Of a stretch of DNA of 59,833 bases, positions 1 to 59,833 are shown piece by piece; position 1 is the stretch's first letter, and each line of letters begins with the position of its first letter. The notes below the pieces were generated by a model. The model was not told the origin of the DNA and did not search any database. It saw only the letters and a list, made by a program, of their open reading frames with translations. Source of the stretch: a virus; the IMG/VR virus record IMGVR_UViG_3300020166_000002, positions 1-59,833 of that record; one strand, given 5' to 3'. The position numbers were made by a program, and so were the translations under genes.

Positions 1-127
1 CTGAGGTTGGAAAGGCAAAGGCTGCAGACCTCAGAGAAAAAATTAAAGACCTTCAGGAAAACCAACTTGAAGAAGAGGTGGTGGCTGAGGTTGAAGAAGC
101 CGTGGTGTCAGGAGTCCCTGAGTTTAA
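1..127. repeat. 127-bp direct terminal repeat (left copy)
   Basis: The first 127 bases are identical to bases 59707-59833. The repeat lies inside one continuous reading frame that runs through the junction without a shift. An exact overlap of this odd length is typical of a de Bruijn graph assembler closing a circle with k=127, so it is more likely an assembly overlap than a biological terminal repeat. The unique genome is then 59,706 bp. Confidence 0.95.
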
Positions 128-3100
128 TGCACAAGAAGAGTTTAACCTTCTTGCTGACGAAGAGAAGGCATCCTACTTAGAGGCAGCAGGTGGAGACCAA
201 GAGGTTGCAATACAATCTTTTGCTGACGATGTGGCTTCATTGGAGCAAGACTTAGAATCTGAAAGCAGATTTAGTTTGACCGAAGAAGGCGATGGTTTGT
301 TGCAAGCAGACGAACAAGATGTCGATGCTATTGCAGAGGAAATGAATTTAATGGATGCTGATGAGGTAAACTTTGTTGCTCCTGAAGGTGAGACAGTTGT
401 TGTTAACCCAATAGAGGAAAGCAATTCTTTAGAGACATTAACTGATGAGGACGTAAGAGAGTTAGGATTCGAAAGCACCGATGAAATGGTACAACCATTA
501 GAGTCTTTTGAAGGTATACCAATGATTACAGGTATTAGTGATATTGCTGCAGGGGGGACTATTTCTGATGCAACAGGTCAGCCTATGAATGCTAAGGGTG
601 GTGTTATGTTTAATGCATTGGCTAAGGTTAAGGCTGCTTGGGCAGGTGTAGAGCGTTCAAAGTCAGAGACTCAATATAAAAAAGCAGTAGAACTATACAA
701 TAAAAACAAAGGTTTATTTGAAAGACTTTGGGAGGAAGGAAGAATCCCTAACGGTCACGTACCTATGGCGATTGTCCGTATGTCTGATGACGCAGTAAAC
801 TCTAACGAGATTGTATTTAGATACTTATCTCCTGAAGTAAAGGCTCAGCCCGAGGCAAATCAAAAGGCAGCGTTAAATGATGTCGTATCCAATCTGAAAA
901 ATAAAAAGGCTCCACAAAATAAACGCCTATTAGATTTCATAGCAAGGAAAGACATCTCCACATTGGGGCAGTTGCTTGACGCTATTGTTCAGGATGCAAA
1001 TCTTCGTGCAAAAGGCGATGTTAAAAGCACACTTACATTAGACGAAAGAGCAGCAATGTTCTCGGAACTATCCACTGCTCCGGGTGTAAAGACTCCTAAC
1101 AAGGCGTACTTAAAATCACTTTATGAAGGTGCGCCTAAAAATAACTCAACACTTTTTACTGCTGACAATATTTACAACGCCATTGGAGAACCTTCAATGA
1201 TGAAGACTAAGAAGGGAGACATTGTTTCTATCGTTGGTATTGATGTAATAAATGGAGGAGTGATTGATATCGACCACCAAAACTATGGTACAGGACCAAA
1301 GGGTAGATTAATTGCCTTAGTGAAAAATCCAACTAATGGTATAAATGTATTCCCCACTTGGAGGGCTAAGGCAAGCAGGGTATTTAAACCGAATAAAGCG
1401 GGCAAACGACCAAGTGATTTACAAGTTTCGGGTCAGACTATGGGTACTGCTGCATCAGACTTGGCGTTCCAAGGAGATAGACCAACTACAGTGATGACAG
1501 ACTTTCAAATCTTGTTAGGCAAGTTGAAGTTTGCATTCCCTGATGTTGCCGTTGCAACTTCTATTGAAGAGTTCAATGATATCCTTCAGCAGCCCGGTGT
1601 AAGAACAAAGGTTTCTGAGGGCAAGGTTATTCTTGGTATGACCAAGGACGGAAAGATATTCTTAAACCCTGAGAGAGAATCATTGGCTACTCCTATTCAC
1701 GAGTATGGTCACATTTGGATTGACTACTTGCGTTCTAAAGCAAGCGGGGAAAAGGGAACTGCTTTATTAGAGAGAGGCTTGAAGTTGGTTGAGAATACTC
1801 AAGCACTGAAAGATGCCATTGCAAAATACGGAGACACTAAACTTGCACGAGAAGAGGCATTGGTAGAACTTATGGCTACCAAGGGAAATACAATTATTGA
1901 AGCATCCAAGAAGTCTCAATTCAAAGAGTGGATGAACGCCACCTTTAAATACATTAAAGAGAAGTTCACTACATCTGATGAGTTGGCTACAGATGCTATT
2001 AAGAAAATGTCTCTTGATGAATTTATCAATACAGGACTTGCCGACCTATTCAAGGGCAAAGCGGTAAGCACAAAATTCGATGCCGCTAAAGAGTCCAAGG
2101 GAATGATGCCGAGGTTTGAACTTGGGGACGATGTCGCTGCGTTTATTAAACAAGCAAGAGGTCAGGGAATATCAGAGGCTGCAATTAAAACTGCACTAAG
2201 AAGAAGAGGTGTTGATGTGGATGTGATTGCATCAGCCATAGAAAAAACCAAGGGCAAGGCTGCAGTTCGTACTAAGGTTAGCGAGGAGTTTGCTCAAGGG
2301 TATGACCGTGTAATGAAAGAGATTGACGGTATCATTGAAAAATCTAAGAAGCGTGGACGTACATATTCTCAGATTCCTAAGAATGTAATTGCATACTTAG
2401 AGGGAACAAAGTTATATGAGAACGCAACCGATGTTCAGAGAGAGCGAATGATTAGAGATATCAGAAAGAAGTTTGGTATCAAAGAGAAGTCGGCTCCATC
2501 TGTTGGAAGAATACTTGGTACTATCAAGGATATCAAGAAGATTACCATTGCTGAAAAAGAATTATATATGCTTCGCTTAAAGGCTCTTAACGAGGGAGCG
2601 AAGAATGTAATTACGGCTATGTCTAAAGCATCTAAGTTGTTGAACGAGGAGATAAATGACTTAGTAAAAAGCGGACAGATTAGTACGCAACAAATGGCTA
2701 ATGTTCTTTCTCGATTCAGTAAGGTTAATCTACTGAGCGATGTATCTATCGAAAGGTTTGTTGACTATATGTCAAAGGTATTTGCTAATGCAGAGTACGC
2801 TGAAATTATATCACAAGCAAATCAGAAACGTAAAGTTGCTAAAGCGAATGCTGCTACTAAGATTGGTATTGCTCAGGCTTTAAGTCCTCAGTTGCAGCGA
2901 TTGTTTTCTATCAACCCAACTCTTATCCCTGATGCGGTATTAGATAAGTACGTATCACTTGTTGAGATGTTTGGCAAGAGAGAGCGAGTCTTGACGCTAC
3001 CTTCTATTGAAGAGGTGACTCAACTTACAGAAGATGTACTGACTGCTATCAATGAAGAGCAATCATTGGTTCCTGAATTACAGGAAAGATATAACGACTA

Positions 3101-6100
3101 CGGTAAGGTAATGAATGATGAGGGCAAGGTAGACTACGCAGCCACCATTAAGTCGATGCTAAAGGACGATGTCATCACGGATGAGGAGTACGAACTTATG
3201 AAGAAATATAAGTCCTCTATCGTCCCTAAAAAGGCTGCTGCCCCAATGTCAGAAGCCGAGATTGAAGAGAGAAGACAAGATATTATAAACGAAGTAAACC
3301 AAACTGAACTTGAATTCAGTGAGTTGCCGAGTAGAGAAGAGCGTGATTTAGCCGCAAAGTTAAAGCGTTTAATCCGAAGCGGTGCAATTGATGGTCTATC
3401 CCTTCCTGATTTGCAAAACCTTTCAAAGGTTATAGACAACATCAACAACGGATACCTTCCTCATTTTGCTGAGGTAATGGTAGAGAAGTTGAATGCGGTC
3501 AATGACGGAAAGAACCTTGCTTCTGCAATCAATAGGTCTAAGCCTTTGCCACTTACTAAGATTTATGCAAAACTAAAATCATTAGTGACTCGAAAGGATT
3601 CTATTGTTGAGATGATAAGACGTAATCCGTTGTTCAATATCGACCAAGTCTTTGGGGATTTTAAAACCAAGGATATTTTTGAATCGGTATTTGGTGCTGC
3701 GTCAAGGGCGGTAGCAAAGTATACTAATGAGTACAGTGTTATTCAAGGCAAAATTGAGAAGGCACAGAATGCGGTACAGAAATCTCTTGGAAGAGACTCT
3801 CTGAAATATACTATGTCAAAGTATAAGCAGATGGCTTACCTGATTCAGCAAGAGTTCTTGAGCAACCCGCAAAGCCCACAAGTAAATTCCGTTACAGGAT
3901 TCCTTAAAGCAACTATAAAAAGGATTGACGATGGGACTACTCAGTTTAGTGAGCGTGACGCTGAAATGCTTCAATCTATCTTAAATGATTTTACTGATGC
4001 TGATGGTAATTTTGATAACGATGCTTTGTTTGATTCGTTTAATAATGCCGAAAAGGAATCTATCAAAACAATCCAAGAGATTAATAGTGGTCTCGGTTCT
4101 AAAGCAGAGTTCACTTCGTCTGTGATTCGTGGAGATAAATTTAATCCACTAAATAACTATGTGCATTTGAATGTAATGCACGAGACTCAGCCAAGTGATA
4201 TGATGAACGGACCTTCTTTTGTGGAGTCGTTTAACAATTCATTAAGACCAAGTACAAGAGCGAAGAATTTAATCGAGAGAACGGGTAAGGTATCCGCTTT
4301 GAACTTTGACGTTTATGCTTCGGTGTTGAAGGGTTCTAAGCAAACGCTTATGGACTTCCATCTTACTGAGCCAATCAGAACTGCAAGACGCACAATGAAT
4401 CAGGCTGAGAAGAACCTTCAGGCTGACGGAGAAAGAATGTCTTCAAGTAAGCGTAAAACTTTTAACGCAATCAAGTCTGCGTTTGAGGAGACTGTAGAAA
4501 ACTTATTGACTAATTCATATGCTGAGAACACAGTGTTGGATGAGGCATTAGAGTTCTTGAAGAAGACGGGATACAGAACTATTCTTGCAGGAAGCGGAAG
4601 GTTCGTTGCAGAATTAACTTCTAACGTGAGTTTTGCGTTGCTCGTTGACCCTGTTGGATTTACTAATGGAACTAAAATAGTTCGCAAGATTAGTAACGAC
4701 CAAGGACCAAGCATCCTAAGCAATCTAAACAGTGGTCAGACCACACGAATGTATAGCGATGGTCTTAGCGGAAGGATGGTAGACACCAATATTCTAAGCC
4801 AAGCAACAGGCACGAAGACACGTGGTGCTTCAACTAAAGCAGCGAACTTCCTTCGTAAGTATTGGGACAAGACAGGTCAGAGATATGTCAAGGGGGTTGA
4901 GTTTGTTGCTGATGCGATGATATCCACACCTGATAAAATGGTGATGAGACCTATTTGGTTTGGAACCTTTGACTCTAAGTTCAAAGAGATTACAGGCAAG
5001 TCTCCCGACTTTGATAAGATAGCAGCGAATGATGAGGCTTATATGTCAAAGTATAAGGAAGCATTAAGTGCTTCTACAAAACACGCAGACAACCGTTCTG
5101 TATTAGCAGGTGCAACAGACAACGCTTTTATGGGTATCCTTAAAGGAACGTCTAAGCCAAATCAAAGCGCAATGCTAAAAGGTTTCAATGCTTTTAATGG
5201 CTTTATGACACGCTTCTTAATATTTGAATACGTGACTGCACGTACAGGTATTATGAATATGATTGGCAAAGGAGAACTGAATAAGAGACAGGGAGCAGCA
5301 TTGATTGCCGGGGTTACATCTCGTATGGTTCTGTATACCTTGATTGGTCAATACCTTTCACACGCACTTACAGACTTGTTTGATGATGAACCAATCGCAA
5401 GGTTGGCGGGAGAATCTAAGGAAGACGAGATGAAGTCTTTTGACAAGGCTTTGGGTCAAGCATTTGCTTCAACGTTTACATCTCTTCTTTTTGGTCGTGA
5501 CTTTGGTAATGCTACCAAGTCAATCCTAAACTCAGGCATCGAAGAGTTTAATAAAGAGCATTTAGATTTTCTTAGAGAAGGAGATTACGATGCGTACAGG
5601 GATGCTATACAATATACTGTTACTCCAAAATCAAAGGATGGAGGAGGCTCAGGCTTGGGTGACTACCTTATGAAGATGGGTGCTGCCTATGGTCCAATCT
5701 TAAAGACGACAGACTTGGTTATCAAAAAGATTACAGAGCCTGCCAAGAAAGAGGCTGATGCAATCAAGAGAAGCGAAGACGAGATGTACTACAGAGTACC
5801 TATGGAGATTCTTGGTAACCTTGGATTCATTCCTTTGTATAAAGATGTTCGTAAGGTTGTGTTAGACCAAATCTATAGTGACCTTAGAAAAGCACAGGCA
5901 GACCTGAAGAACGCTAAGAAGACTAAAGAGGAAATGCTTCAGGGATACGATAGTGAAGGTGATATGAAGCGTTACGACTACAGGTTGTGGGAGAACACAT
6001 TCGGTCCAAATTCACCTGACTATGATGTTAGAGAAGCAGAAAAGAAACTAAAGGCTGCTGAGAGAAAGTTGAAGCAACAAATGAAAGATGAGTTGTACGA

Positions 6101-6197
6101 CTATACGCCTCCGTCAAAAGGCGGATGGAAAGAAGAGAAGTGGGATGATAATTTTGATTCAGATTGGGATGATAAAGAGTGGTCTAATGAATGGTAA
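1..6197 (+). CDS. Giant internal virion/ejection protein with HEYGH metallopeptidase motif (C-terminal 2,065 residues)
   Basis: This is the C-terminal part of the protein that starts at 58191. Joined across the circle the gene is 7,713 nt, or 2,570 residues. A zinc-metallopeptidase-like motif H-E-Y-G-H falls at about residues 1072-1076 (bases 1698-1712), with acidic residues downstream in R-E-E-A-L-V-E-L. Long charged helical stretches follow, then a hydrophobic patch (about 5,200-5,380) and a Trp/Asp-rich tail. Size, position as last late gene and helical content fit the largest ejection protein of short-tailed phages (role of T7 gp16), or the large polyvalent proteins carried in virions. 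I infer it is packaged and enters the host with the DNA. Proteolytic activity is suggested only by the motif. Confidence 0.8.
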   Translation, partial: EVGKAKAADLREKIKDLQENQLEEEVVAEVEEAVVSGVPEFNAQEEFNLLADEEKASYLEAAGGDQEVAIQSFADDVASLEQDLESESRFSLTEEGDGLLQADEQDVDAIAEEMNLMDADEVNFVAPEGETVVVNPIEESNSLETLTDEDVRELGFESTDEMVQPLESFEGIPMITGISDIAAGGTISDATGQPMNAKGGVMFNALAKVKAAWAGVERSKSETQYKKAVELYNKNKGLFERLWEEGRIPNGHVPMAIVRMSDDAVNSNEIVFRYLSPEVKAQPEANQKAALNDVVSNLKNKKAPQNKRLLDFIARKDISTLGQLLDAIVQDANLRAKGDVKSTLTLDERAAMFSELSTAPGVKTPNKAYLKSLYEGAPKNNSTLFTADNIYNAIGEPSMMKTKKGDIVSIVGIDVINGGVIDIDHQNYGTGPKGRLIALVKNPTNGINVFPTWRAKASRVFKPNKAGKRPSDLQVSGQTMGTAASDLAFQGDRPTTVMTDFQILLGKLKFAFPDVAVATSIEEFNDILQQPGVRTKVSEGKVILGMTKDGKIFLNPERESLATPIHEYGHIWIDYLRSKASGEKGTALLERGLKLVENTQALKDAIAKYGDTKLAREEALVELMATKGNTIIEASKKSQFKEWMNATFKYIKEKFTTSDELATDAIKKMSLDEFINTGLADLFKGKAVSTKFDAAKESKGMMPRFELGDDVAAFIKQARGQGISEAAIKTALRRRGVDVDVIASAIEKTKGKAAVRTKVSEEFAQGYDRVMKEIDGIIEKSKKRGRTYSQIPKNVIAYLEGTKLYENATDVQRERMIRDIRKKFGIKEKSAPSVGRILGTIKDIKKITIAEKELYMLRLKALNEGAKNVITAMSKASKLLNEEINDLVKSGQISTQQMANVLSRFSKVNLLSDVSIERFVDYMSKVFANAEYAEIISQANQKRKVAKANAATKIGIAQALSPQLQRLFSINPTLIPDAVLDKYVSLVEMFGKRERVLTLPSIEEVTQLTEDVLTAINEEQSLVPELQERYNDYGKVMNDEGKVDYAATIKSMLKDDVITDEEYELMKKYKSSIVPKKAAAPMSEAEIEERRQDIINEVNQTELEFSELPSREERDLAAKLKRLIRSGAIDGLSLPDLQNLSKVIDNINNGYLPHFAEVMVEKLNAVNDGKNLASAINRSKPLPLTKIYAKLKSLVTRKDSIVEMIRRNPLFNIDQVFGDFKTKDIFESVFGAASRAVAKYTNEYSVIQGKIEKAQNAVQKSLGRDSLKYTMSKYKQMAYLIQQEFLSNPQSPQVNSVTGFLKATIKRIDDGTTQFSERDAEMLQSILNDFTDADGNFDNDALFDSFNNAEKESIKTIQEINSGLGSKAEFTSSVIRGDKFNPLNNYVHLNVMHETQPSDMMNGPSFVESFNNSLRPSTRAKNLIERTGKVSALNFDVYASVLKGSKQTLMDFHLTEPIRTARRTMNQAEKNLQADGERMSSSKRKTFNAIKSAFEETVENLLTNSYAENTVLDEALEFLKKTGYRTILAGSGRFVAELTSNVSFALLVDPVGFTNGTKIVRKISNDQGPSILSNLNSGQTTRMYSDGLSGRMVDTNILSQATGTKTRGASTKAANFLRKYWDKTGQRYVKGVEFVADAMISTPDKMVMRPIWFGTFDSKFKEITGKSPDFDKIAANDEAYMSKYKEALSASTKHADNRSVLAGATDNAFMGILKGTSKPNQSAMLKGFNAFNGFMTRFLIFEYVTARTGIMNMIGKGELNKRQGAALIAGVTSRMVLYTLIGQYLSHALTDLFDDEPIARLAGESKEDEMKSFDKALGQAFASTFTSLLFGRDFGNATKSILNSGIEEFNKEHLDFLREGDYDAYRDAIQYTVTPKSKDGGGSGLGDYLMKMGAAYGPILKTTDLVIKKITEPAKKEADAIKRSEDEMYYRVPMEILGNLGFIPLYKDVRKVVLDQIYSDLRKAQADLKNAKKTKEEMLQGYDSEGDMKRYDYRLWENTFGPNSPDYDVREAEKKLKAAERKLKQQMKDELYDYTPPSKGGWKEEKWDDNFDSDWDDKEWSNEW

Positions 6198-6208
6198 AAT
6201 AAAAAACT

Positions 6209-6370
6209 ATGCCCTTTAAAAGTGAAGCACAAAGGAGGTTTATGTACAAGAACCATCCTGAGATAGCAAAGAAGTGGGAGCAGGAAGAGAAGTGGGATAA
6301 GGCAACGAAGAGTCTACCCGAGCGTCTTGCTCCCAAAGGATATTGGAAGAGAAGAGATAGGAAAAGATAG
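6209..6370 (+). CDS. Small phage protein, 53 aa
   Basis: Reads M-P-F-K-S-E-A-Q-R-R-F-M-Y and continues with K-N-H-P-E-I-A-K-K-W, ending in a basic tail. Short proteins opening with this 'K-S-E-A-Q-R-R-F' pattern are common in tailed phages, but their function is not known to me. It begins 11 bases after the giant gene and is probably the last gene of the late transcript. Its TAG stop forms the first bases of a 20-base hairpin (6368-6387) shared with the convergent early block. Confidence 0.7.
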   Translation: MPFKSEAQRRFMYKNHPEIAKKWEQEEKWDKATKSLPERLAPKGYWKRRDRKR

Positions 6371-18107: not shown

Positions 18108-19187
18108 TTAGTTAAACAATGCTACTTCGTTATCTGTGAACCAACCGCCACACGCACTGCAGTGGTAGTGGTTAAACCCATCGTACTCCAAGTCAGAGAA
18201 ACAATCAATGCAGGATGGCTTCTCTACATAAACCTCTTCCCTCTCATTAAAGACCTCATCGAAATAAGAAAGTTGTGTGCATTCTTTTTGTGTCTTTGAA
18301 GACACTGTCTTGGACTTGGATAGTGTAAAAGATTTTGGAATGGGCTTCTGAAGAAATGTCTTGTGCATTACCTCCCCACTTCTGATTTGTTTTGGGTTAA
18401 AGTATATCCACGCAGTAACTTCTTTACCCTGTATGACAACCTGAATCTGCTCACGCTTGTACCATCTCGGATGACCCTCAAGGATATCTAACTTCGCTAA
18501 GGTAGAGTCACTTACTTTGAATACGTCTACCGCCACGTTGTGTCCCACTCCCTTTTGATTTACCAAGAAAGGTAAACCGTTAACGATTAACGGATACTTA
18601 TCCTTAGTCTTGCCTGAGCCAACAAAGTCAGAGTTGTAAAGGTGACCGTAGTAGTTGCTATAACCTTTCTTCAATGTTCCGTACACTGCAACCACGTTGT
18701 CAAGTAGGACGTTGTCTTTTGAGAACCACACGCCATCTCTGTTGGTGTACAGGTGACGATTGTATATCTGATACGATTTGGTCTTGGTGTTGACGCTAAC
18801 AAACCTGCACTCATACTTCTCAAGTTCAGTTTTCCATTGGTCTCTTGGCATATCACCTAACATCTCAGCAAGTACCTTGCTATCTGTCTTGTTGTCGTTG
18901 CCCAACCCTTTGATGGTTCCGTTCATCATCAGCAGTTCGTCTGTGTTCTTACCGCACACAAATGGATGTGTGTTCGCTCGGTTAATCTTACCGACAGTTG
19001 CGTATCTGAAATGCGCAATGTATGGTCGGTCAGTTAATAGTTTCTTGTACTCTTTAGAGTCGTGATAGGTTACCTCAAAGGTGTCCAACCAAACAATGCC
19101 CAACCCATCAGGATTGACAGTTGATGATTTCTTTAGGACTTCTTGCGATACCTTGCGACCTCTTTGTTTAATGATGATTACACACAT
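18108..19187 (-). CDS. Fusion of class II glutamine amidotransferase, GGCT-like domain and zinc ribbon
   Basis: A 359-residue protein with three parts. (1) Residues 1-150: catalytic Cys2 after Met, N-P-D-G-L-G, H-F-R-Y-A-T and M-N-G-T-I, the landmarks of a class II (Ntn) glutaminase domain. (2) About 165-275: V-Y-G-T-L-K-K-G-Y and L-D-I-L-E-G-H-P-R-W-Y, typical of gamma-glutamylcyclotransferase/AIG2 folds. (3) About 325-350: C-I-D-C ... C-S-A-C, a zinc ribbon. The linker before the ribbon carries palindrome-encoded V-S-S-K-T. Glutaminase and GGCT domains are known neighbours of amidoligases, and an amidoligase-like gene lies about 1.3 kb away (20536-21450). I infer a joint amide-bond or gamma-glutamyl modification role. 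Confidence 0.8.
   Translation of the reverse strand: MCVIIIKQRGRKVSQEVLKKSSTVNPDGLGIVWLDTFEVTYHDSKEYKKLLTDRPYIAHFRYATVGKINRANTHPFVCGKNTDELLMMNGTIKGLGNDNKTDSKVLAEMLGDMPRDQWKTELEKYECRFVSVNTKTKSYQIYNRHLYTNRDGVWFSKDNVLLDNVVAVYGTLKKGYSNYYGHLYNSDFVGSGKTKDKYPLIVNGLPFLVNQKGVGHNVAVDVFKVSDSTLAKLDILEGHPRWYKREQIQVVIQGKEVTAWIYFNPKQIRSGEVMHKTFLQKPIPKSFTLSKSKTVSSKTQKECTQLSYFDEVFNEREEVYVEKPSCIDCFSDLEYDGFNHYHCSACGGWFTDNEVALFN
18290..18305. repeat. 16-bp palindrome, copy in glutaminase-GGCT gene
   Basis: Exact copy in the linker between the GGCT-like domain and the zinc ribbon; encodes V-S-S-K-T. Confidence 0.95.
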
Positions 19188-19215
19188 AATGATTATATTT
19201 TGTTTAATTATTGTA

Positions 19216-19223
19216 CAAAGATA
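19216..19223 (-). promoter_or_regulatory. Bacteroidota-type promoter (-7 box TATCTTTG)
   Basis: TATCTTTG on the minus strand, 20 bases after TTTG, and 28 bases before the ATG of the glutaminase-GGCT gene. This is a close match to the Bacteroidota consensus. Confidence 0.75.
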
Positions 19224-19229
19224 GTTTAA

Positions 19230-19742
19230 TTATTTTAGACTACCAAATTTATTTTTTACTCGTTCCCAATACACTTCAGTTGATTGCTTCTTGTGACCTC
19301 GTCCTCCGCCATTCCATTTACGGGCAACCACCTCAAAGAATTCTTCCTGAGTCAATCCCTCGCAACACTCAACCTGCTCCGCCATAATCTCAAACATCTC
19401 GATAGACTTTTCTCTGTTCCATCTGTCGTCCAAGGTGTATCGGAATGGGGCGTTCCACTTTTTTAGTTTGCGGTTAACCTCACGCACCATAATAGGACGT
19501 ATCTGTAGGCAACCTGCCGCTTTCTCTTTTTCGTTGTATGCAGAATCATTCCCGCTACTCTCTACTTGGATTACTGCTTCAACAAATAATTCCCAATCGG
19601 TTTGTGTCTTTGAAGACACAATCTCGGGTGAGATTGTATCTTCTATAACACATTGTTCTGAATCTGTAGTTGGCTTGTCGTATGATGCAAACCCAAGCAC
19701 GGATACCGTGACTACTCCTGCTAAAATTTTAATCTGTCTCAT
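19230..19742 (-). CDS. Exported lytic transglycosylase/lysozyme-like protein
   Basis: A 170-residue protein. Residues 1-20 form a basic start and hydrophobic stretch (I-L-A-G-V-V-T-V-S-V-L-G-F-A), a signal peptide or membrane anchor. The catalytic-type motif V-I-Q-V-E-S-S-G-N follows near 55-63, then G-C-L-Q-I-R-P and W-N-G-G-G, as in SLT-fold lytic transglycosylases (Glu catalytic). The linker between anchor and domain holds palindrome-encoded V-S-S-K-T. It could be a second peptidoglycan enzyme acting from the periplasm, apart from the late amidase. Confidence 0.7.
   Translation of the reverse strand: MRQIKILAGVVTVSVLGFASYDKPTTDSEQCVIEDTISPEIVSSKTQTDWELFVEAVIQVESSGNDSAYNEKEKAAGCLQIRPIMVREVNRKLKKWNAPFRYTLDDRWNREKSIEMFEIMAEQVECCEGLTQEEFFEVVARKWNGGGRGHKKQSTEVYWERVKNKFGSLK
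19604..19619. repeat. 16-bp palindrome, copy in transglycosylase-like gene
   Basis: Exact copy encoding V-S-S-K-T in the linker after the signal-like segment. Confidence 0.95.
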
Positions 19743-19743
19743 C

Positions 19744-20070
19744 TTAAATAGTTGTTTGTGTTATATACTTCTGTGCTTGTGTCTTACTGACAAAGTATAG
19801 TTTGTTCTTATCAAATAATTCCTCGCTTATGTCATCCCAACAAGACATCACTACCTCGTTGTTTTCTATCGTGTAGTACGTGTCTCCCTCATTGAATGGG
19901 AATCCTGAATCGTACCAACACTCGTCAAGGAGATATCCCTTGGTTCGGTGCATATGCGCAATAAAATTGTCGCAGTGGCGTAGGTCGTTGAACTCTTTTG
20001 TTAGTGTCCATAAACTCTTTCCTTTATAGGATGGTTTACAGGTTTCGAATTGTAGTGTTACTTTATACAT
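19744..20070 (-). CDS. Hypothetical protein, 108 aa
   Basis: Rich in aromatic residues, with an opening strand (Y-K-V-T-L-Q-F-E) and acidic middle. It contains R-H-C-D-N-F-I-A-H-M-H, which has His and Cys residues but no recognised catalytic arrangement. One base separates it from the transglycosylase-like gene. Function unknown. Confidence 0.55.
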   Translation of the reverse strand: MYKVTLQFETCKPSYKGKSLWTLTKEFNDLRHCDNFIAHMHRTKGYLLDECWYDSGFPFNEGDTYYTIENNEVVMSCWDDISEELFDKNKLYFVSKTQAQKYITQTTI

Positions 20071-20081
20071 AATGATTTAAT

Positions 20082-20243
20082 TTATCGTGTTAATACTGCG
20101 GTTAATTTCTGACGTACTATCCAAGGATACCTTGATATGTTGTCGTTGAACACTCGGTCAATGGCTTCCCATTTTGAATGTGCAGAGATATTGCAGATAT
20201 CTTTACCTGCATATCTCACCTTGTAGTACTGCTTACTTTCCAT
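20082..20243 (-). CDS. Small protein, 53 aa
   Basis: Reads M-E-S-K-Q-Y-Y-K-V-R-Y-A-G-K and then S-A-H-S-K-W-E-A-I-D-R-V-F. The 'I-S-A-x-S-x-W-E-A-I-D-R' arrangement looks like a small beta-beta-alpha protein family seen in phages. It overlaps the membrane-protein gene upstream by 11 bases, filling an otherwise empty gap. Confidence 0.6.
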   Translation of the reverse strand: MESKQYYKVRYAGKDICNISAHSKWEAIDRVFNDNISRYPWIVRQKLTAVLTR

Positions 20244-20427
20244 CTTTTGCGAACATTAGAACTCCTGCTAAATACAACAGGGTTAAGGTGAACAAACTCA
20301 CAATACACGTTGAAATAAAATGTGGTACGGAACTTACGTCTTGGAATAACGCCAAGATGAAACGACCTGCGTTGAATGTTACTACTGCCAACATTAACGC
20401 CATTAAAACTTTGCTTACTTTTTTCAT
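20233..20427 (-). CDS. Small membrane protein, two helices
   Basis: A 64-residue protein with two predicted transmembrane helices (about 6-27 and 36-58) and a basic start M-K-K-V. It could be a holin-like or superinfection protein; the nearby exported transglycosylase-like gene makes a lysis link possible but unproven. Confidence 0.55.
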   Translation of the reverse strand: MKKVSKVLMALMLAVVTFNAGRFILALFQDVSSVPHFISTCIVSLFTLTLLYLAGVLMFAKDGK

Positions 20428-20504
20428 TTTGATTTTATTTTATTAGTTTCCTGTTTCGTCCTTTGGGACTCATCAGCACAGGCACTCACCTGTGGACAGG
20501 AGGA

Positions 20505-20524
20505 TAGTGTCCTTGAAGACACTA
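20505..20524. repeat. Wobble variant of the 16-bp palindrome in an intergenic hairpin
   Basis: TAGTGTCCTTGAAGACACTA, the exact reverse complement of the hairpin at 6368-6387. Flanking GG and CC extend the stem to about 10 bp. On the plus strand it is followed by TTTTTTT, although no plus-strand gene precedes it. It lies 12 bases past the end of the amidoligase-like gene on the minus strand. Confidence 0.85.
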
Positions 20525-20535
20525 CCCTGCTTTTT

Positions 20536-21450
20536 TTAATATCTCCTTGGCGCAGGAGTCTCGGTGAATCCTAACCACCCTTTGATATCCTCGGTCACCT
20601 TGCCTGTCTTGATATACTTTTGGAATGATACTGCCAAGGTCATTATCTCGTTCACCTTGTCTTGGTTTCTGTCGTACATCGCCATCAGGATTGGTTCTGC
20701 CTTCTTCAAGAAAGTCTTGAAATTTCCGTTTGGATTGTTTACGCTGAAATCAACCAATTCATACATCATCTCGTATCTGCGCATCATCTGTTTTACTGAT
20801 TGGAATCGGGCAGGAAGACGAAATTCAATCACGCTACCTTTGTTTAAGCATACGTGATACTTGTTTGAATTGCCTACAGGTAATCCTGCCCAATCTTCTC
20901 TATTCTCCTGCATACGGATATTGAAACGGCAGTAAGGATTTTGCAATCTGTGACGATACATTGCGTACAGGATGCCTGAATTTTTGCGTACTAAATTCAT
21001 CAATTCACTACCATCCATCCCTTCTACGGCAAGAGAAATGTGTCCGCCACATCGCTTGTCTGATGGGCTATTGGCATCCTCAATAATTCTCTTTGCTTTG
21101 TGCATCATATCGTAGACCTTGTTGCGCCATACTGATGCAGGTAGCAAAGGTAGGATGTTGGTCACTGCTTCGTATCCGCAAGAACCATCACGCTCAAATC
21201 CGCAAAGCAATTCGTATTCTCTTACTGCTCCACGAGATAATTGGTTTTTCTCAATCTCCATTCCGATTGTGAAACGTGAATTGAAATCCGAACCTACCTG
21301 CACCAAATTGCGCTTATCAGAATTTTTCAATTGGGCAATGTCCGAAGATTTTGCACCTTTCTGCATCTCACGAAATTCAGGTTTTCTGTGGTAGTGTTGA
21401 ACTACTGCTCTGTCTGAGCGATTTTCGATTTTGTAGATGATACCTTCCAT
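20536..21450 (-). CDS. Amidoligase-like protein (GS-type COOH-NH2 ligase family)
   Basis: A 304-residue protein. Near residue 60 it has F-T-I-G-M-E-I-E-K-N, then R-D-G-S-C-G-Y-E-A-V-T-N-I-L-P-L (about 88-103), C-G-G-H-I-S-L (about 135) and R-F-N-I-R-M. The G-x-E-x-E start, the D-G-S ... E-A-V/T ... P-L stretch and the G-G-H block are landmarks of the Amidoligase_2 family, glutamine-synthetase-like ligases that join amines to carboxylates with ATP. The glutaminase/GGCT fusion nearby is a known genomic partner type. The substrate is unknown: a peptide, a protein or a nucleotide are all possible. Confidence 0.7.
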   Translation of the reverse strand: MEGIIYKIENRSDRAVVQHYHRKPEFREMQKGAKSSDIAQLKNSDKRNLVQVGSDFNSRFTIGMEIEKNQLSRGAVREYELLCGFERDGSCGYEAVTNILPLLPASVWRNKVYDMMHKAKRIIEDANSPSDKRCGGHISLAVEGMDGSELMNLVRKNSGILYAMYRHRLQNPYCRFNIRMQENREDWAGLPVGNSNKYHVCLNKGSVIEFRLPARFQSVKQMMRRYEMMYELVDFSVNNPNGNFKTFLKKAEPILMAMYDRNQDKVNEIMTLAVSFQKYIKTGKVTEDIKGWLGFTETPAPRRY

Positions 21451-23539: not shown

Positions 23540-25141
23540 ATGTCTGAATTAGGATTCACTCCAAAGAACCTCACCTTTGATGACAAGGGTAGAAAAAAAT
23601 TATTTAAAGGGATAGAGGCTATTGCCTCAGCAGTAAAGTCAACTCTCGGACCTTCCGGTCAGACGGTTCTTATCGAATCACCACATCACACGCACGGCAT
23701 CACAGTAACCAAGGACGGTGTTACGGTTGCCAAGGCGGTAGACCTATTAGACCCTGTCGAGAACCTTGCGGTTCGGATGATGAAGGAAGCGGCAGACCGC
23801 ACGGCATCGCAAGCAGGTGATGGAACGACCACGGCTATTGTACTTACAGAGGCTATTGTAAAAGCAGGATTTGAGGACATCGTTGATGGTGTAAATAAAA
23901 CTCAAGTACTAAGAGACCTTGTTACGGAAACCAATAAGGTAGTTAAGTCACTAAAAAAACATTCACGCAAAGTGTCAGGGCGCACCCTTCGGGATGTAGC
24001 CATCATCTCAACAAACAACGACCCGCAACTCGGAACAACAATTGCTAACGTATACAACCGTGTTGGTAAGAATGGTATAGTTACCATCTCCAAGTCTCAA
24101 ACATCAGACACTTACTTTGAGACAACAAATGGATTGAAAGTAGAACGAGGATATACCTCACCACTATTCATCAACGACCATAAGAAAGATGAGTGTGTCT
24201 TTGAAGACACTTACATCCTTGTGAGTGATGCAGAGATTAGCAACCTACTATCTATCGAGAACGTATTGAAACCAATCATTAATGACGGCAAGAAGTTGCT
24301 TGTCATTGCACCGTGTTCTCAAAACGTAATCAACACATTGGCTGCTAACGTAATGAAAAACAATCTAAAGTTCTGTGCTATCACTCCGCCAAACTTCGGA
24401 TATAAACAACACGAACTAATGCAAGACATTGCTCTTGCGGTTGGGGCTACCTACTTCTCCGAGAAGACAGGAGACGACCTCAGCATTATGACATTCGATG
24501 ACTTGGGTCACGCTGCCAAGGTGATAGTTGGTCGTGACTCTACCGTCATCGTTAAAGACTCAGATGAAATATCTGAACAAGTTAAAGAGCGAGTAGAGCA
24601 ATTGTGGGATGCCCACGCTAACACTCCAAAGAAAGTAGACAAGGAATTTATCTTGTCAAGAATCGCCTCCCTCACAGGGGGAGTTGGGGTTATCTATGTA
24701 GGTGGCAACACAGACCTTGAGCAGAAGGAATTGTATGACCGTGTCGATGATGCGGTGTGTGCAGTTCGCTCAGCACTCGAAGAAGGTATCCTACCGGGGG
24801 GAGGCATCGCATTATTTAAGGAATCGTTGGTAGGGTTTTTTGACCAACCTGACGAGGAGAACATTGCTCGAAAGATATTGTTCAAAGCACTACGTGCTCC
24901 TCTTATGCAAATTTGGCATAATGCAGGTATTGAGGAAAGTAAAGACGGGCTTGAGTCTCACTACGATTTTGGATACAATGTCAAAACACAGGAGTGGGGA
25001 GATATGTATAAGATGGGAGTTATCGACCCATTGAAGGTTACCAAGTCTGCTCTTCAGAATGCAGTGTCTGTTGCGGTAACTATTCTTTCGACTAATGCTA
25101 TCATAACAATGGCTCGAACTTATGAGGACCAAAATTCTTGA
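23540..25141 (+). CDS. groEL: Phage chaperonin, GroEL-like
   Basis: A 533-residue protein, close to the usual 540. Landmarks: K-S-T-L-G-P-S-G-Q-T-V near 35, T-K-D-G-V-T-V-A-K near 58, G-D-G-T-T-T-A near 92 (ATP site), R-G-Y-T-S-P-L-F-I-N near 205, and G-I-L-P-G-G-G-I-A-L near 418. The Gly/Met-rich C-terminal tail of host GroEL is missing. Residues V-F-E-D-T come from the palindrome at 24195 and replace apical-domain residues without changing length. With the GroES-like gene downstream it forms a folding machine probably serving virion proteins. Confidence 0.95.
   Translation: MSELGFTPKNLTFDDKGRKKLFKGIEAIASAVKSTLGPSGQTVLIESPHHTHGITVTKDGVTVAKAVDLLDPVENLAVRMMKEAADRTASQAGDGTTTAIVLTEAIVKAGFEDIVDGVNKTQVLRDLVTETNKVVKSLKKHSRKVSGRTLRDVAIISTNNDPQLGTTIANVYNRVGKNGIVTISKSQTSDTYFETTNGLKVERGYTSPLFINDHKKDECVFEDTYILVSDAEISNLLSIENVLKPIINDGKKLLVIAPCSQNVINTLAANVMKNNLKFCAITPPNFGYKQHELMQDIALAVGATYFSEKTGDDLSIMTFDDLGHAAKVIVGRDSTVIVKDSDEISEQVKERVEQLWDAHANTPKKVDKEFILSRIASLTGGVGVIYVGGNTDLEQKELYDRVDDAVCAVRSALEEGILPGGGIALFKESLVGFFDQPDEENIARKILFKALRAPLMQIWHNAGIEESKDGLESHYDFGYNVKTQEWGDMYKMGVIDPLKVTKSALQNAVSVAVTILSTNAIITMARTYEDQNS
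24195..24210. repeat. 16-bp palindrome, copy in groEL
   Basis: Exact copy, plus strand GTGTCTTTGAAGACAC, encoding V-F-E-D-T just before the strand Y-I-L of the apical domain. Confidence 0.95.
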
Positions 25142-25382
25142 TATAATCCTTAACAACTATCCTGAAGAAGGATTCCTCAAAGCAGATGGCTTTGATGATG
25201 CTATCATTGGTATTAATAGCAAAGGGAACAAACTTGTTTACTCAGTTAGCAAGTGTCTCAATATCCTTATGAAGGAGGGGATGGATTTTGAAGATGCATA
25301 TGAACACTTCTACTACAATATAGAAGCAGCATATGTTGGAGAGAATACGCCTATATGGGTAAACGACATATTTGAACTTTAA
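25122..25382 (+). CDS. Conserved phage protein between GroEL and GroES, 86 aa
   Basis: Contains D-G-F-D-D-A-I-I-G near residue 25 and Y-Y-N-I-E-A-A-Y-V-G near 70. This 'D-G-F-D-x-A-I-I-G' family is widespread in tailed phages with no known function. Its start overlaps the groEL end by 20 bases, so the two are coupled. Confidence 0.75.
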   Translation: MRTKILDIILNNYPEEGFLKADGFDDAIIGINSKGNKLVYSVSKCLNILMKEGMDFEDAYEHFYYNIEAAYVGENTPIWVNDIFEL

Positions 25383-25391
25383 TAAAAAATT

Positions 25392-25649
25392 ATGAAACCA
25401 ATCGGAAAATATATTTTAATCAAAGCAATAGAGGAAGAGATTAAACACTCTTCAGGTTTAATATTATCTCAAGAAGATTCAAACCAATTGCGCTACAAGA
25501 AAGCAACAGTTGTTACTCCGGGAACAGATGTTGAGCAAATTAAAAGTAATGATTCAATCTATTACGACTCAAGGTCAGGGACCACTATGATAATCAATGG
25601 TGAGACCTACACCATTATTGTCGAGAGAGATGTCGTTGTTGTTTTATAA
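25392..25649 (+). CDS. groES: Phage co-chaperonin, GroES-like
   Basis: An 85-residue protein with K-P-I-G-K-Y-I-L-I-K at the start, the mobile-loop region H-S-S-G-L-I-L-S (15-30), G-T-D-V-E-Q-I-K-S-N-D and R-D-V-V-V-V-L at the end. These are the beta-barrel landmarks of Cpn10. Gene order (GroEL first, GroES last, with a gene between) is reversed from bacterial groESL. It should cap the phage GroEL ring. Confidence 0.85.
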   Translation: MKPIGKYILIKAIEEEIKHSSGLILSQEDSNQLRYKKATVVTPGTDVEQIKSNDSIYYDSRSGTTMIINGETYTIIVERDVVVVL

Positions 25650-58190: not shown

Positions 58191-59833
58191 ATGAACGAAG
58201 AGTACTTAAATAAGTTATATCAATGGGTATCCTCTATGGACAATACGTTTCAGGAGGATATGTCTATAGATATGTTTATGCAAAGAATGGCAGACCCTAA
58301 CTATGCATCTAATATGTATAATTGGATTTCCTCAAAAGACGAAACATTCCAAACAGATATGCCGTTGGAAAACTTTATGAATAGAATCTCTAATGCTGAT
58401 TCTATCGCACCACCAACTACATTAAAAAAAAAAGAAGATGGGACTTCGACATCTTTGGATACCACGTTACAATCAAACTTTCAGCAACCGACTGAAGAAG
58501 ATTATTTTACAGGAGGATTTGGTGATTTCCTAAGAGGTATGGATGAAGTGATTCCTCTTGGAATCGGTGACTTTATTGATGACTTATCACGCTCTGTAGC
58601 GAGTGGATATCGCCAAGGTCAGTTATCTGAAAACGCATCTGACTTATTGTTGCGTGGTTCTATGGCTACTGATGAAGACCTTCAAAGTTTTATTGCCGCA
58701 AATAAAGAGGCTCAAATGTTAGGTCCATCAGATGAGATGATGGACTATCAGAAGACTTACGAAGAGAACGGCAAAGGAATCTTAGGCGTAATATTAGGCA
58801 TTGCTAAAAACCCAACAGTCATTCCTGAACTTATACTTAGTTCAATGACGGGTATGGCTACAAACACAGATGCATTAGCAGCAGGTGGGGCAGCCATTAC
58901 GACAGGCGCAGGATATGGAGCAGCGACAGGTTTAGCAGCAGGTGGTGTAGGAGCAGCCCCGGGTGCTTTAGCAGGTGCGGCAGCCGCAATTCCTTATGCA
59001 TTTGCAGCAGCAGGAACTGCAGTTGAAATGGGGGCAACCTTTGCTGAACTTTTACAGGAAGAGGTAGGAGACCAAGAACTAACTGCAGAGAATATCCGAG
59101 AGGTTCTTAACAACGAAGAGAAGTACACGAGGATTAGAAATAAAGCATTGGCTCGTGGTATAACTATCGGTGCAATTGATGCGTTCACAGGTAAAGTTGG
59201 CGGTAAGGTTGCGAGTAAAATTCTCACCAAGGGTGGTAAGCAAGCAGCAAAGGAAGCCACTAAAGCAACTGTTGCTAAGTCTGTAGCCGCAGCATCAGGT
59301 ATTGAGGCAGTGGGTGGCTCTGTTGGAGAGGCTACTGCAAGAGGGGTAATTGGTCAAGATATGGACGTATCAGAGATTGCTCTTGAAGGTATTGCAGAAC
59401 TTCCCGGTGGTGTGAAAGATTTTGTTTCAGCAAGATTCAGCAGCCCAAAGTACAAGGTAAATGGAAGCAATGTAGACGCTGCATTTATTGACAACCTTAT
59501 TGAAACGATGACGCTTGAAGAAATTCAGGCGACTAAAATACAGATTGATAACGACTATGATGGAAGAGCAGGTAAACTGCAGGATAGAATTGTAGAGTTG
59601 TCTATTAAAGATGAGTTGATAAAAGCAAACCCCGAACTAAATACTACTACACTAAACGAGTTGACTAAACTTCAAATAGAGTTAGATAAGTTAGAGGGAA
59701 ATAAAACTGAGGTTGGAAAGGCAAAGGCTGCAGACCTCAGAGAAAAAATTAAAGACCTTCAGGAAAACCAACTTGAAGAAGAGGTGGTGGCTGAGGTTGA
59801 AGAAGCCGTGGTGTCAGGAGTCCCTGAGTTTAA
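58191..59833 (+). CDS. Giant internal virion/ejection protein (N-terminal part, runs across the circle)
   Basis: Start of the 2,570-residue protein completed at 1-6197; the frame continues through the 127-base overlap. Two tandem units of about 32 residues open the protein (Y-Q-W-V-S-S-M-D-N-T-F-Q and Y-N-W-I-S-S-K-D-E-T-F-Q), a short repeat seen at the start of giant virion proteins of Bacteroidota phages. Residues about 215-300 are Gly/Ala-rich and hydrophobic, able to insert in a membrane. The metallopeptidase motif lies in the other part. Confidence 0.85.
   Translation, partial: MNEEYLNKLYQWVSSMDNTFQEDMSIDMFMQRMADPNYASNMYNWISSKDETFQTDMPLENFMNRISNADSIAPPTTLKKKEDGTSTSLDTTLQSNFQQPTEEDYFTGGFGDFLRGMDEVIPLGIGDFIDDLSRSVASGYRQGQLSENASDLLLRGSMATDEDLQSFIAANKEAQMLGPSDEMMDYQKTYEENGKGILGVILGIAKNPTVIPELILSSMTGMATNTDALAAGGAAITTGAGYGAATGLAAGGVGAAPGALAGAAAAIPYAFAAAGTAVEMGATFAELLQEEVGDQELTAENIREVLNNEEKYTRIRNKALARGITIGAIDAFTGKVGGKVASKILTKGGKQAAKEATKATVAKSVAAASGIEAVGGSVGEATARGVIGQDMDVSEIALEGIAELPGGVKDFVSARFSSPKYKVNGSNVDAAFIDNLIETMTLEEIQATKIQIDNDYDGRAGKLQDRIVELSIKDELIKANPELNTTTLNELTKLQIELDKLEGNKTEVGKAKAADLREKIKDLQENQLEEEVVAEVEEAVVSGVPEF
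59707..59833. repeat. 127-bp direct terminal repeat (right copy)
   Basis: Identical to bases 1-127. See the left copy for interpretation. Confidence 0.95.

Follow-up and report, generated by a model that had tools for sequence, protein, structure and literature searches.

The IMG/VR virus record IMGVR_UViG_3300020166_000002 is a stretch of 59,833 bases, referred to here at its full length as the window, and it carries on its minus strand two genes whose products we analyze below as a candidate enzyme pair. The first gene (18108..19187) encodes a 359-residue fusion of a class II glutaminase of the N-terminal nucleophile (Ntn) type, a GGACT-type gamma-glutamyl cyclotransferase, a linker and a zinc ribbon. 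The second (20536..21450) encodes a 304-residue protein identified by structural modelling, Foldseek, VIA and hhalign as a divergent amidoligase with a glutamine-synthetase (GS) fold. Both open reading frames (ORFs) are real and lie in a region of Sak, exonuclease and primase genes, separated by a gap of 1,349 nt that contains a small lytic transglycosylase gene and short ORFs. The record has an exact 127-bp direct repeat at its two ends (1-127 and 59707-59833) and is therefore probably a complete phage genome.

The fusion protein contains the motifs Cys2, NPDG, HFRYAT, YGTLKKG and LDILEG. Its structure was modelled with AlphaFold2 from 29 aligned homologues, with a pLDDT of 84 overall and values below 50 at residues 286-321. 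The N-terminal domain (about residues 1-160; 18708..19187) scored below the gathering threshold with the Pfam glutaminase models GATase_4/6 (19.4 bits vs. 23 and 27) and far below the cut-off of the NCBIfam EgtC model TIGR03442 (14.8 vs. 218.65 bits). In the structural comparison, these 160 residues matched EgtC (4zfk) and GlmS (2j6h) equally well (VIA Z of 11.2 in each case). The modelled Ntn fold, together with the active-site Cys (Cys2), Arg (R61), Asn-Gly (N89-G90) and Asp (D102), identifies this as a predicted class II glutaminase domain.

The second domain of the fusion (about residues 163-283; 18339..18701) is recognized by the Pfam GGACT model (PF06094) over residues 166-266, with 79.1 bits against a cut-off of 22.8 (E=5e-22). 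Human and mouse GGACT are the top PDB matches of residues 163-282 (VIA Z 18.2 over 119-122 residues, 28-29% identity), with lower scores for GGCT (Z 11.9) and ChaC2 (Z 9.7). The domain has the YGTL motif at residues 169-172, and E237 sits in the stretch that aligns with the catalytic Glu of GGACT (the 3jud entry being the E82Q mutant). Sequence score, fold, YGTL and catalytic Glu all give the same assignment, to GGACT. The domain is followed by a linker that is disordered according to its pLDDT (residues 286-321; 18225..18332) and holds an in-frame copy (18290-18305) of a repeated palindrome described below, and then by the zinc ribbon, recognized from its sequence and Cys conservation (C326-x2-C329 ... 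C343-x2-C346; 18150..18212). Residues R61, N89, G90, D102, Y169, G170, T171 and E237 are invariant in all 88 unique homologues of the fusion; Cys2 is kept in 87 of them, as is each of the four zinc-ribbon Cys residues.

Sequence-family searches were empty for the amidoligase: neither Pfam, NCBIfam nor a PDB sequence search gave a match, and PF12224 (Amidoligase_2) had none above its gathering threshold in the genomes of the window or four sister phages. PHROGs returned a weak match to 'amidoligase enzyme' (E=0.031). The assignment therefore rests on structure and profile comparison. The structural model is confident (pLDDT 89.7), and its top PDB match by Foldseek is the gamma-glutamylmethylamide synthetase 9qur (E=3.9e-5), with glutamine synthetases and YbdK next in rank. 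With VIA-align, the Z scores were 9.0 (YbdK), 8.8 (glutamine synthetase) and 8.1 (gamma-glutamylcysteine synthetase, gamma-GCS). Among viral structure models, many phage proteins named amidoligase match the window protein, and hhalign matched it to a phage amidoligase alignment, which includes the PF12224 protein of phage C75C1, with a probability of 94.8 (E=5e-8). The modelled protein has a GS/gamma-GCS catalytic fold and would form amide bonds in an ATP-dependent reaction.

The amidoligase sequence contains the motifs GMEIE, DGS...EAV and GGH, and its key residues are conserved in 77 of 77 homologues. These are E65 and E67 of the GxExE metal-site motif (GMEIE, residues 63-67; 21250..21264), D88, S90 and E94 of the DxSxxxE motif (residues 88-94; 21169..21189), H137 of the GGH motif (residues 135-137; 21040..21048), and E209 and R211 of the EFR motif (residues 209-211; 20818..20826). 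The invariant GxExE, DxS...E and EFR motifs align with those of canonical PF12224 members. The canonical GxHxH motif (CGxHVH) differs, the second His being replaced at position 139 in all 77 homologues (by T in 70, N in 5, S in 1 and C in 1). Of the two His residues of GxHxH in glutamine synthetase, the first is a metal ligand and the second makes contact with ATP. By analogy, the metal site of the amidoligase appears intact, while the nucleotide contact may differ because the second His is replaced throughout the family.

These results bear out the domain content given in the original prediction, made from the sequence alone, which had assigned glutaminase, GGCT/AIG2-like and zinc-ribbon domains to one protein and called the other amidoligase-like. 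All of the motifs it quoted are present, the modelled folds and conservation agree with its domain assignments, and structure prediction supports both the GGCT and the amidoligase folds, the GS fold of the latter being backed by its confident model and the hhalign score. The active-site residues are essentially invariant in the 88 fusion and 77 amidoligase homologues.

The two genes are strictly paired. Every one of the 72 unique fusion loci whose upstream sequence exceeds 4.8 kb also carries the amidoligase, and both enzymes stay while the small genes between them vary from locus to locus. The family recurs in many viral contigs and is thus no chance find, and the glutaminase-GGCT fusion is fixed throughout the clade of the window phage. 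Seven terminase-related phages (elemoA, elemoD, elemoF, phi19:3, phi38:1, Calle_2 and Gundel_1) lack both genes. The amidoligase profiles used detected no amidoligase at 20 cellular GGCT loci or at 16 phage helicase loci used as controls.

To this can be added phage C75C1 (OQ984151), whose fusion protein is 43% identical to that of the window and whose amidoligase matches PF12224 at E=3.5e-30; this amidoligase was not matched by the profile of the window amidoligase family. Since the fusion thus has a partner amidoligase of a separate lineage in C75C1, the data suggest that the link between fusion and amidoligase is functional, rather than a mere consequence of shared ancestry. PF12224-type amidoligases also occur beside a GGCT alone (Bacillus phage 055SW001, Geobacillus phage GR1 and an Opitutales contig) or beside a glutaminase alone (Arthrobacter phages Salgado and Ottawa, Acinetobacter phage vB_AciJM_313 and OM43 phage MEP401). 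The partnership of amidoligase, glutaminase and GGCT put forward in the original prediction is thus borne out by the 72 loci, by C75C1 and by published phage cassettes. Its description of the single-gene fusion as unusual holds less well: the fusion is real, but it is also found in the whole clade, in the unrelated phage C75C1 and in a Campylobacteraceae contig. In this last contig, the glutaminase-GGCT fusion (L131:6001-6822) lies beside ung and ribosomal protein genes with no amidoligase nearby, showing that a neighbouring ligase is not required for the fusion to occur. The Opitutales contig (L132:4409-6372) has an amidoligase followed by two different GGCT-family genes, and phage-like genes are also present.

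We propose that the pair forms a two-gene gamma-glutamyl-amide module, in which the amidoligase joins glutamate to an amine and the fusion removes or edits the product; we would put the chances of this being correct at about even. The amidoligase would couple a carboxylate to an amine after activating it with ATP, the likeliest carboxylate being the gamma one of glutamate. The Ntn domain of the fusion would either hydrolyse gamma-glutamyl amides, as EgtC does, or draw ammonia from glutamine, while the GGACT-type domain would free the amine and leave 5-oxoproline. During infection, the two proteins together could place a gamma-glutamyl group on an amine metabolite or a cell-wall amine and take it off again, or could edit such a group. 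The proposal builds on the two folds, the intact catalytic residues, the strict pairing and the pairing with amidoligases of two lineages. Judging from the models, all three active sites lie in folds that handle gamma-glutamyl amides, and the nearest solved relatives of the ligase act on glutamate. We favour an install-and-edit module because one type of bond would account for all three activities.

Several points weigh against this proposal. Most of the 72 loci come from one phage clade and are not independent, so that the count overstates the independence of the evidence. The second His of the canonical GxHxH motif is gone family-wide and the handling of ATP may differ as a result. The Z scores of the amidoligase (9.0) are moderate, and the substrate cannot be read from a fold match. 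It should also be noted that two different gamma-glutamyl-cleaving sites in one protein would be redundant if both only removed the group, and that we found no published assay of any enzyme from this phage family.

The stem peptides of peptidoglycan have both a gamma-D-glutamyl link and an amine left free on diaminopimelate. A first alternative, possible though tentative, is that the module acts on these peptides, forming or breaking gamma-glutamyl links of an unusual kind, and that this remodelling blocks superinfection. Such a proposal concerns the target and is compatible with either reaction mode, the gamma-glutamyl-amide chemistry proposed above or the amidation considered next. The enzymes are of the same types as those of the published 'peptidoglycan modification cassette' of phiEco32- and RIO-1-type podoviruses (PMC5498523, PMC10580990), but two ligases of the full cassette were not found in the window. 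An alignment-based scan, with CW02 as positive control, detected no ATP-grasp ligase in the window or in five related genomes, and the COOH-NH2 ligase (PF14395) was sought and not found in the window, with ctwe8250 as positive control. The lytic transglycosylase gene between the fusion and amidoligase genes (19230-19742) is present in only 4 related loci; we therefore rejected a functional link between it and the module, and the neighbourhood gives no independent pointer to peptidoglycan.

A second alternative is an amidotransferase, in which the glutaminase would free ammonia from glutamine, the amidoligase would use it to convert a host carboxylate (e.g. of the peptidoglycan stem) to a carboxamide, and the GGCT would trim by-products. 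MurT-GatD is a known two-protein amidation system that acts on the peptidoglycan stem (PMC3267633), the catalytic residues of a class II glutaminase are all present in the fusion, GlmS is a tied best fold match of the glutaminase domain, and the Arthrobacter, OM43 and Acinetobacter phages have glutaminase-only partners. The glutaminase is, however, fused to the GGCT and not to the ligase, the GGCT would be left without an obvious role, and some phages have a ligase and a GGCT with no annotated glutaminase nearby. We consider this option somewhat more doubtful than the first.

A further scheme is that of a reversible gamma-glutamyl tag, with the ligase capping an amine on cell-wall precursors, polyamines or proteins and the fusion erasing the cap by hydrolysis and cyclisation. 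This strikes us as unlikely; if true, phages would have a dedicated system for writing and erasing a modification not so far known from them. Still less probable is a scavenging role, in which the module would turn over host glutathione, gamma-glutamyl amino acids and polyamine adducts to provide amino acids for the phage. GGCT-family enzymes do normally degrade gamma-glutamyl compounds, but scavenging would have no need of the ATP-consuming ligase that every related locus retains, and the cyclotransferase fold is closer to GGACT than to the glutathione-specific ChaC (Z 18.2 vs. 9.7). Finally, the tagging of proteins or DNA bases, both suggested in the original prediction, is very improbable, although PafA and other protein taggers belong to the GS-fold ligases. 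No candidate tag peptide was seen, and nothing favours host proteins, possible as they are, over small-molecule or peptidoglycan amines. PafA is not among the fold matches listed, a gap to which we attach no weight. Base modification has no support, as the scanned proteins of the window (with many small ORFs left out and some proteins compared with one library only) include no enzyme resembling thymidylate synthase and none that hydroxylates or glycosylates bases.

The palindrome found in the linker of the fusion belongs to a 16-bp family, GTGTCTT(TG/CA)AAGACAC, with 14 tight copies in the window (at 6370, 8550, 13886, 16102, 18290, 19604, 20507, 21532, 22390, 24195, 31889, 37988, 45103 and 53987) and 15 if up to 2 mismatches are permitted, compared to 0.22 expected. 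Eight copies are intergenic, although the listed ORFs cover 89% of the window; others lie in genes, including those of GroEL and the fusion. We compared its placement across 91 unique loci related to this one, drawn from L005-L034 and L050-L129. Of these, 44 have a copy in the 120 nt preceding the fusion gene, almost always 19-25 nt ahead of the start codon, and 42 have one in the 120 nt that follow the gene; the amidoligase gene gave a similar picture, and about 3% is expected per slot. The palindrome is almost never inside the fusion or amidoligase genes of these loci. It is possibly a gene-punctuating operator, a terminator or a processing hairpin.

The terminase of the window phage shares 74.6% identity with its counterpart in podovirus ctfjg026, 46% with those of the Flavobacterium elemo phages and 31-39% with those of Cellulophaga and Tenacibaculum phages, and a contig binned with a Cytophagales genome carries a related fusion gene. 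From this kinship, the host is probably a member of the Bacteroidota, and probably flavobacterial (Flavobacteriia). Ahead of the minus-strand genes between 13268 and 23147, a start context rich in A/T recurs, which reads TAAAATCAAATCAAAATG-like on the coding strand and is compatible with Bacteroidota translation starts lacking a Shine-Dalgarno sequence. The phage also encodes a GroEL of 533 residues followed by a GroES-like ORF (23540-25649), both kept in most related loci and in the elemo phages, and a 2,039-residue ORF (78-6197) without a convincing Pfam match (the best being DUF3418, E=3e-4). PADLOC found no defence or counter-defence family.

Amidoligase, glutaminase and GGCT genes are scattered over unrelated phages. 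RIO-1-like podoviruses have a seven-gene 'peptidoglycan modification cassette', also present in phiEco32, 7-11, PA11, tf, LUZ24, PaP3 and CW02 and hypothesised to change the cell surface against superinfection (PMC5498523); OM43 phages have an amidoligase and a glutaminase (PMC10580990), and LUZ24-like phages an amidoligase, a COOH-NH2 ligase, a glutaminase and an ATP-grasp protein (PMC3890496). The function given to the cassette is a hypothesis in all three papers. Like the cassettes of phiEco32, 7-11, LUZ24, tf, RIO-1, PSA-HP1 and CW02, the window clusters amidoligase, class II glutaminase and GGCT, and the known podovirus cassette genes likewise sit in the replication/early region (PMC5498523, PMC3890496). 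The window differs in that glutaminase and GGCT form one protein with a zinc ribbon, and in its single amidoligase, which is too divergent for PF12224.

Two particular phages are also among the closest systems. The podovirus ctfjg026 (MW202828) and its IMG/VR relatives have the orthologous pair, ordered as in the window with respect to GroEL/GroES, Sak, exonuclease and primase; the amidoligase ORF of ctfjg026 (L001:6179-7942) differs by about 240 extra N-terminal residues, which have no Pfam match. C75C1 shares the glutaminase-GGCT fusion and an amidoligase gene 0.9 kb upstream in the same direction, but its amidoligase is a canonical PF12224 member, its fusion lacks the zinc ribbon and its genome is that of a different phage. 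Outside phages, the proposed module resembles ergothioneine biosynthesis, where gamma-glutamylcysteine is the product of EgtA and EgtC removes the glutamate from a gamma-glutamyl compound derived from it (PMC11993508): in both cases a ligase makes a gamma-glutamyl amide that a glutaminase-fold protein later cleaves. Unlike the window fusion, however, EgtC has no GGCT domain, and no EgtB, EgtD or EgtE was seen. Human and mouse GGACT convert gamma-glutamylamines to 5-oxoproline and an amine (PMC4919911) and align with the phage domain in the region of the catalytic Glu, but are stand-alone eukaryotic enzymes, whereas the phage domain is part of a fusion.

Because the grouping of amidoligase, glutaminase and GGCT has already been described in phages, the window module represents a known phage cassette condensed to two genes, rather than a new pathway. 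By reducing the set to two genes, one of them encoding a three-domain fusion, this clade shows which activities belong together and offers a small system for a direct test, and the predicted chemistry (gamma-glutamyl amides, with a GGACT-like rather than glutathione-specific cyclotransferase) is narrow enough to assay. The value of this real and well-conserved enzyme pair lies in its condensed architecture and testable chemistry.

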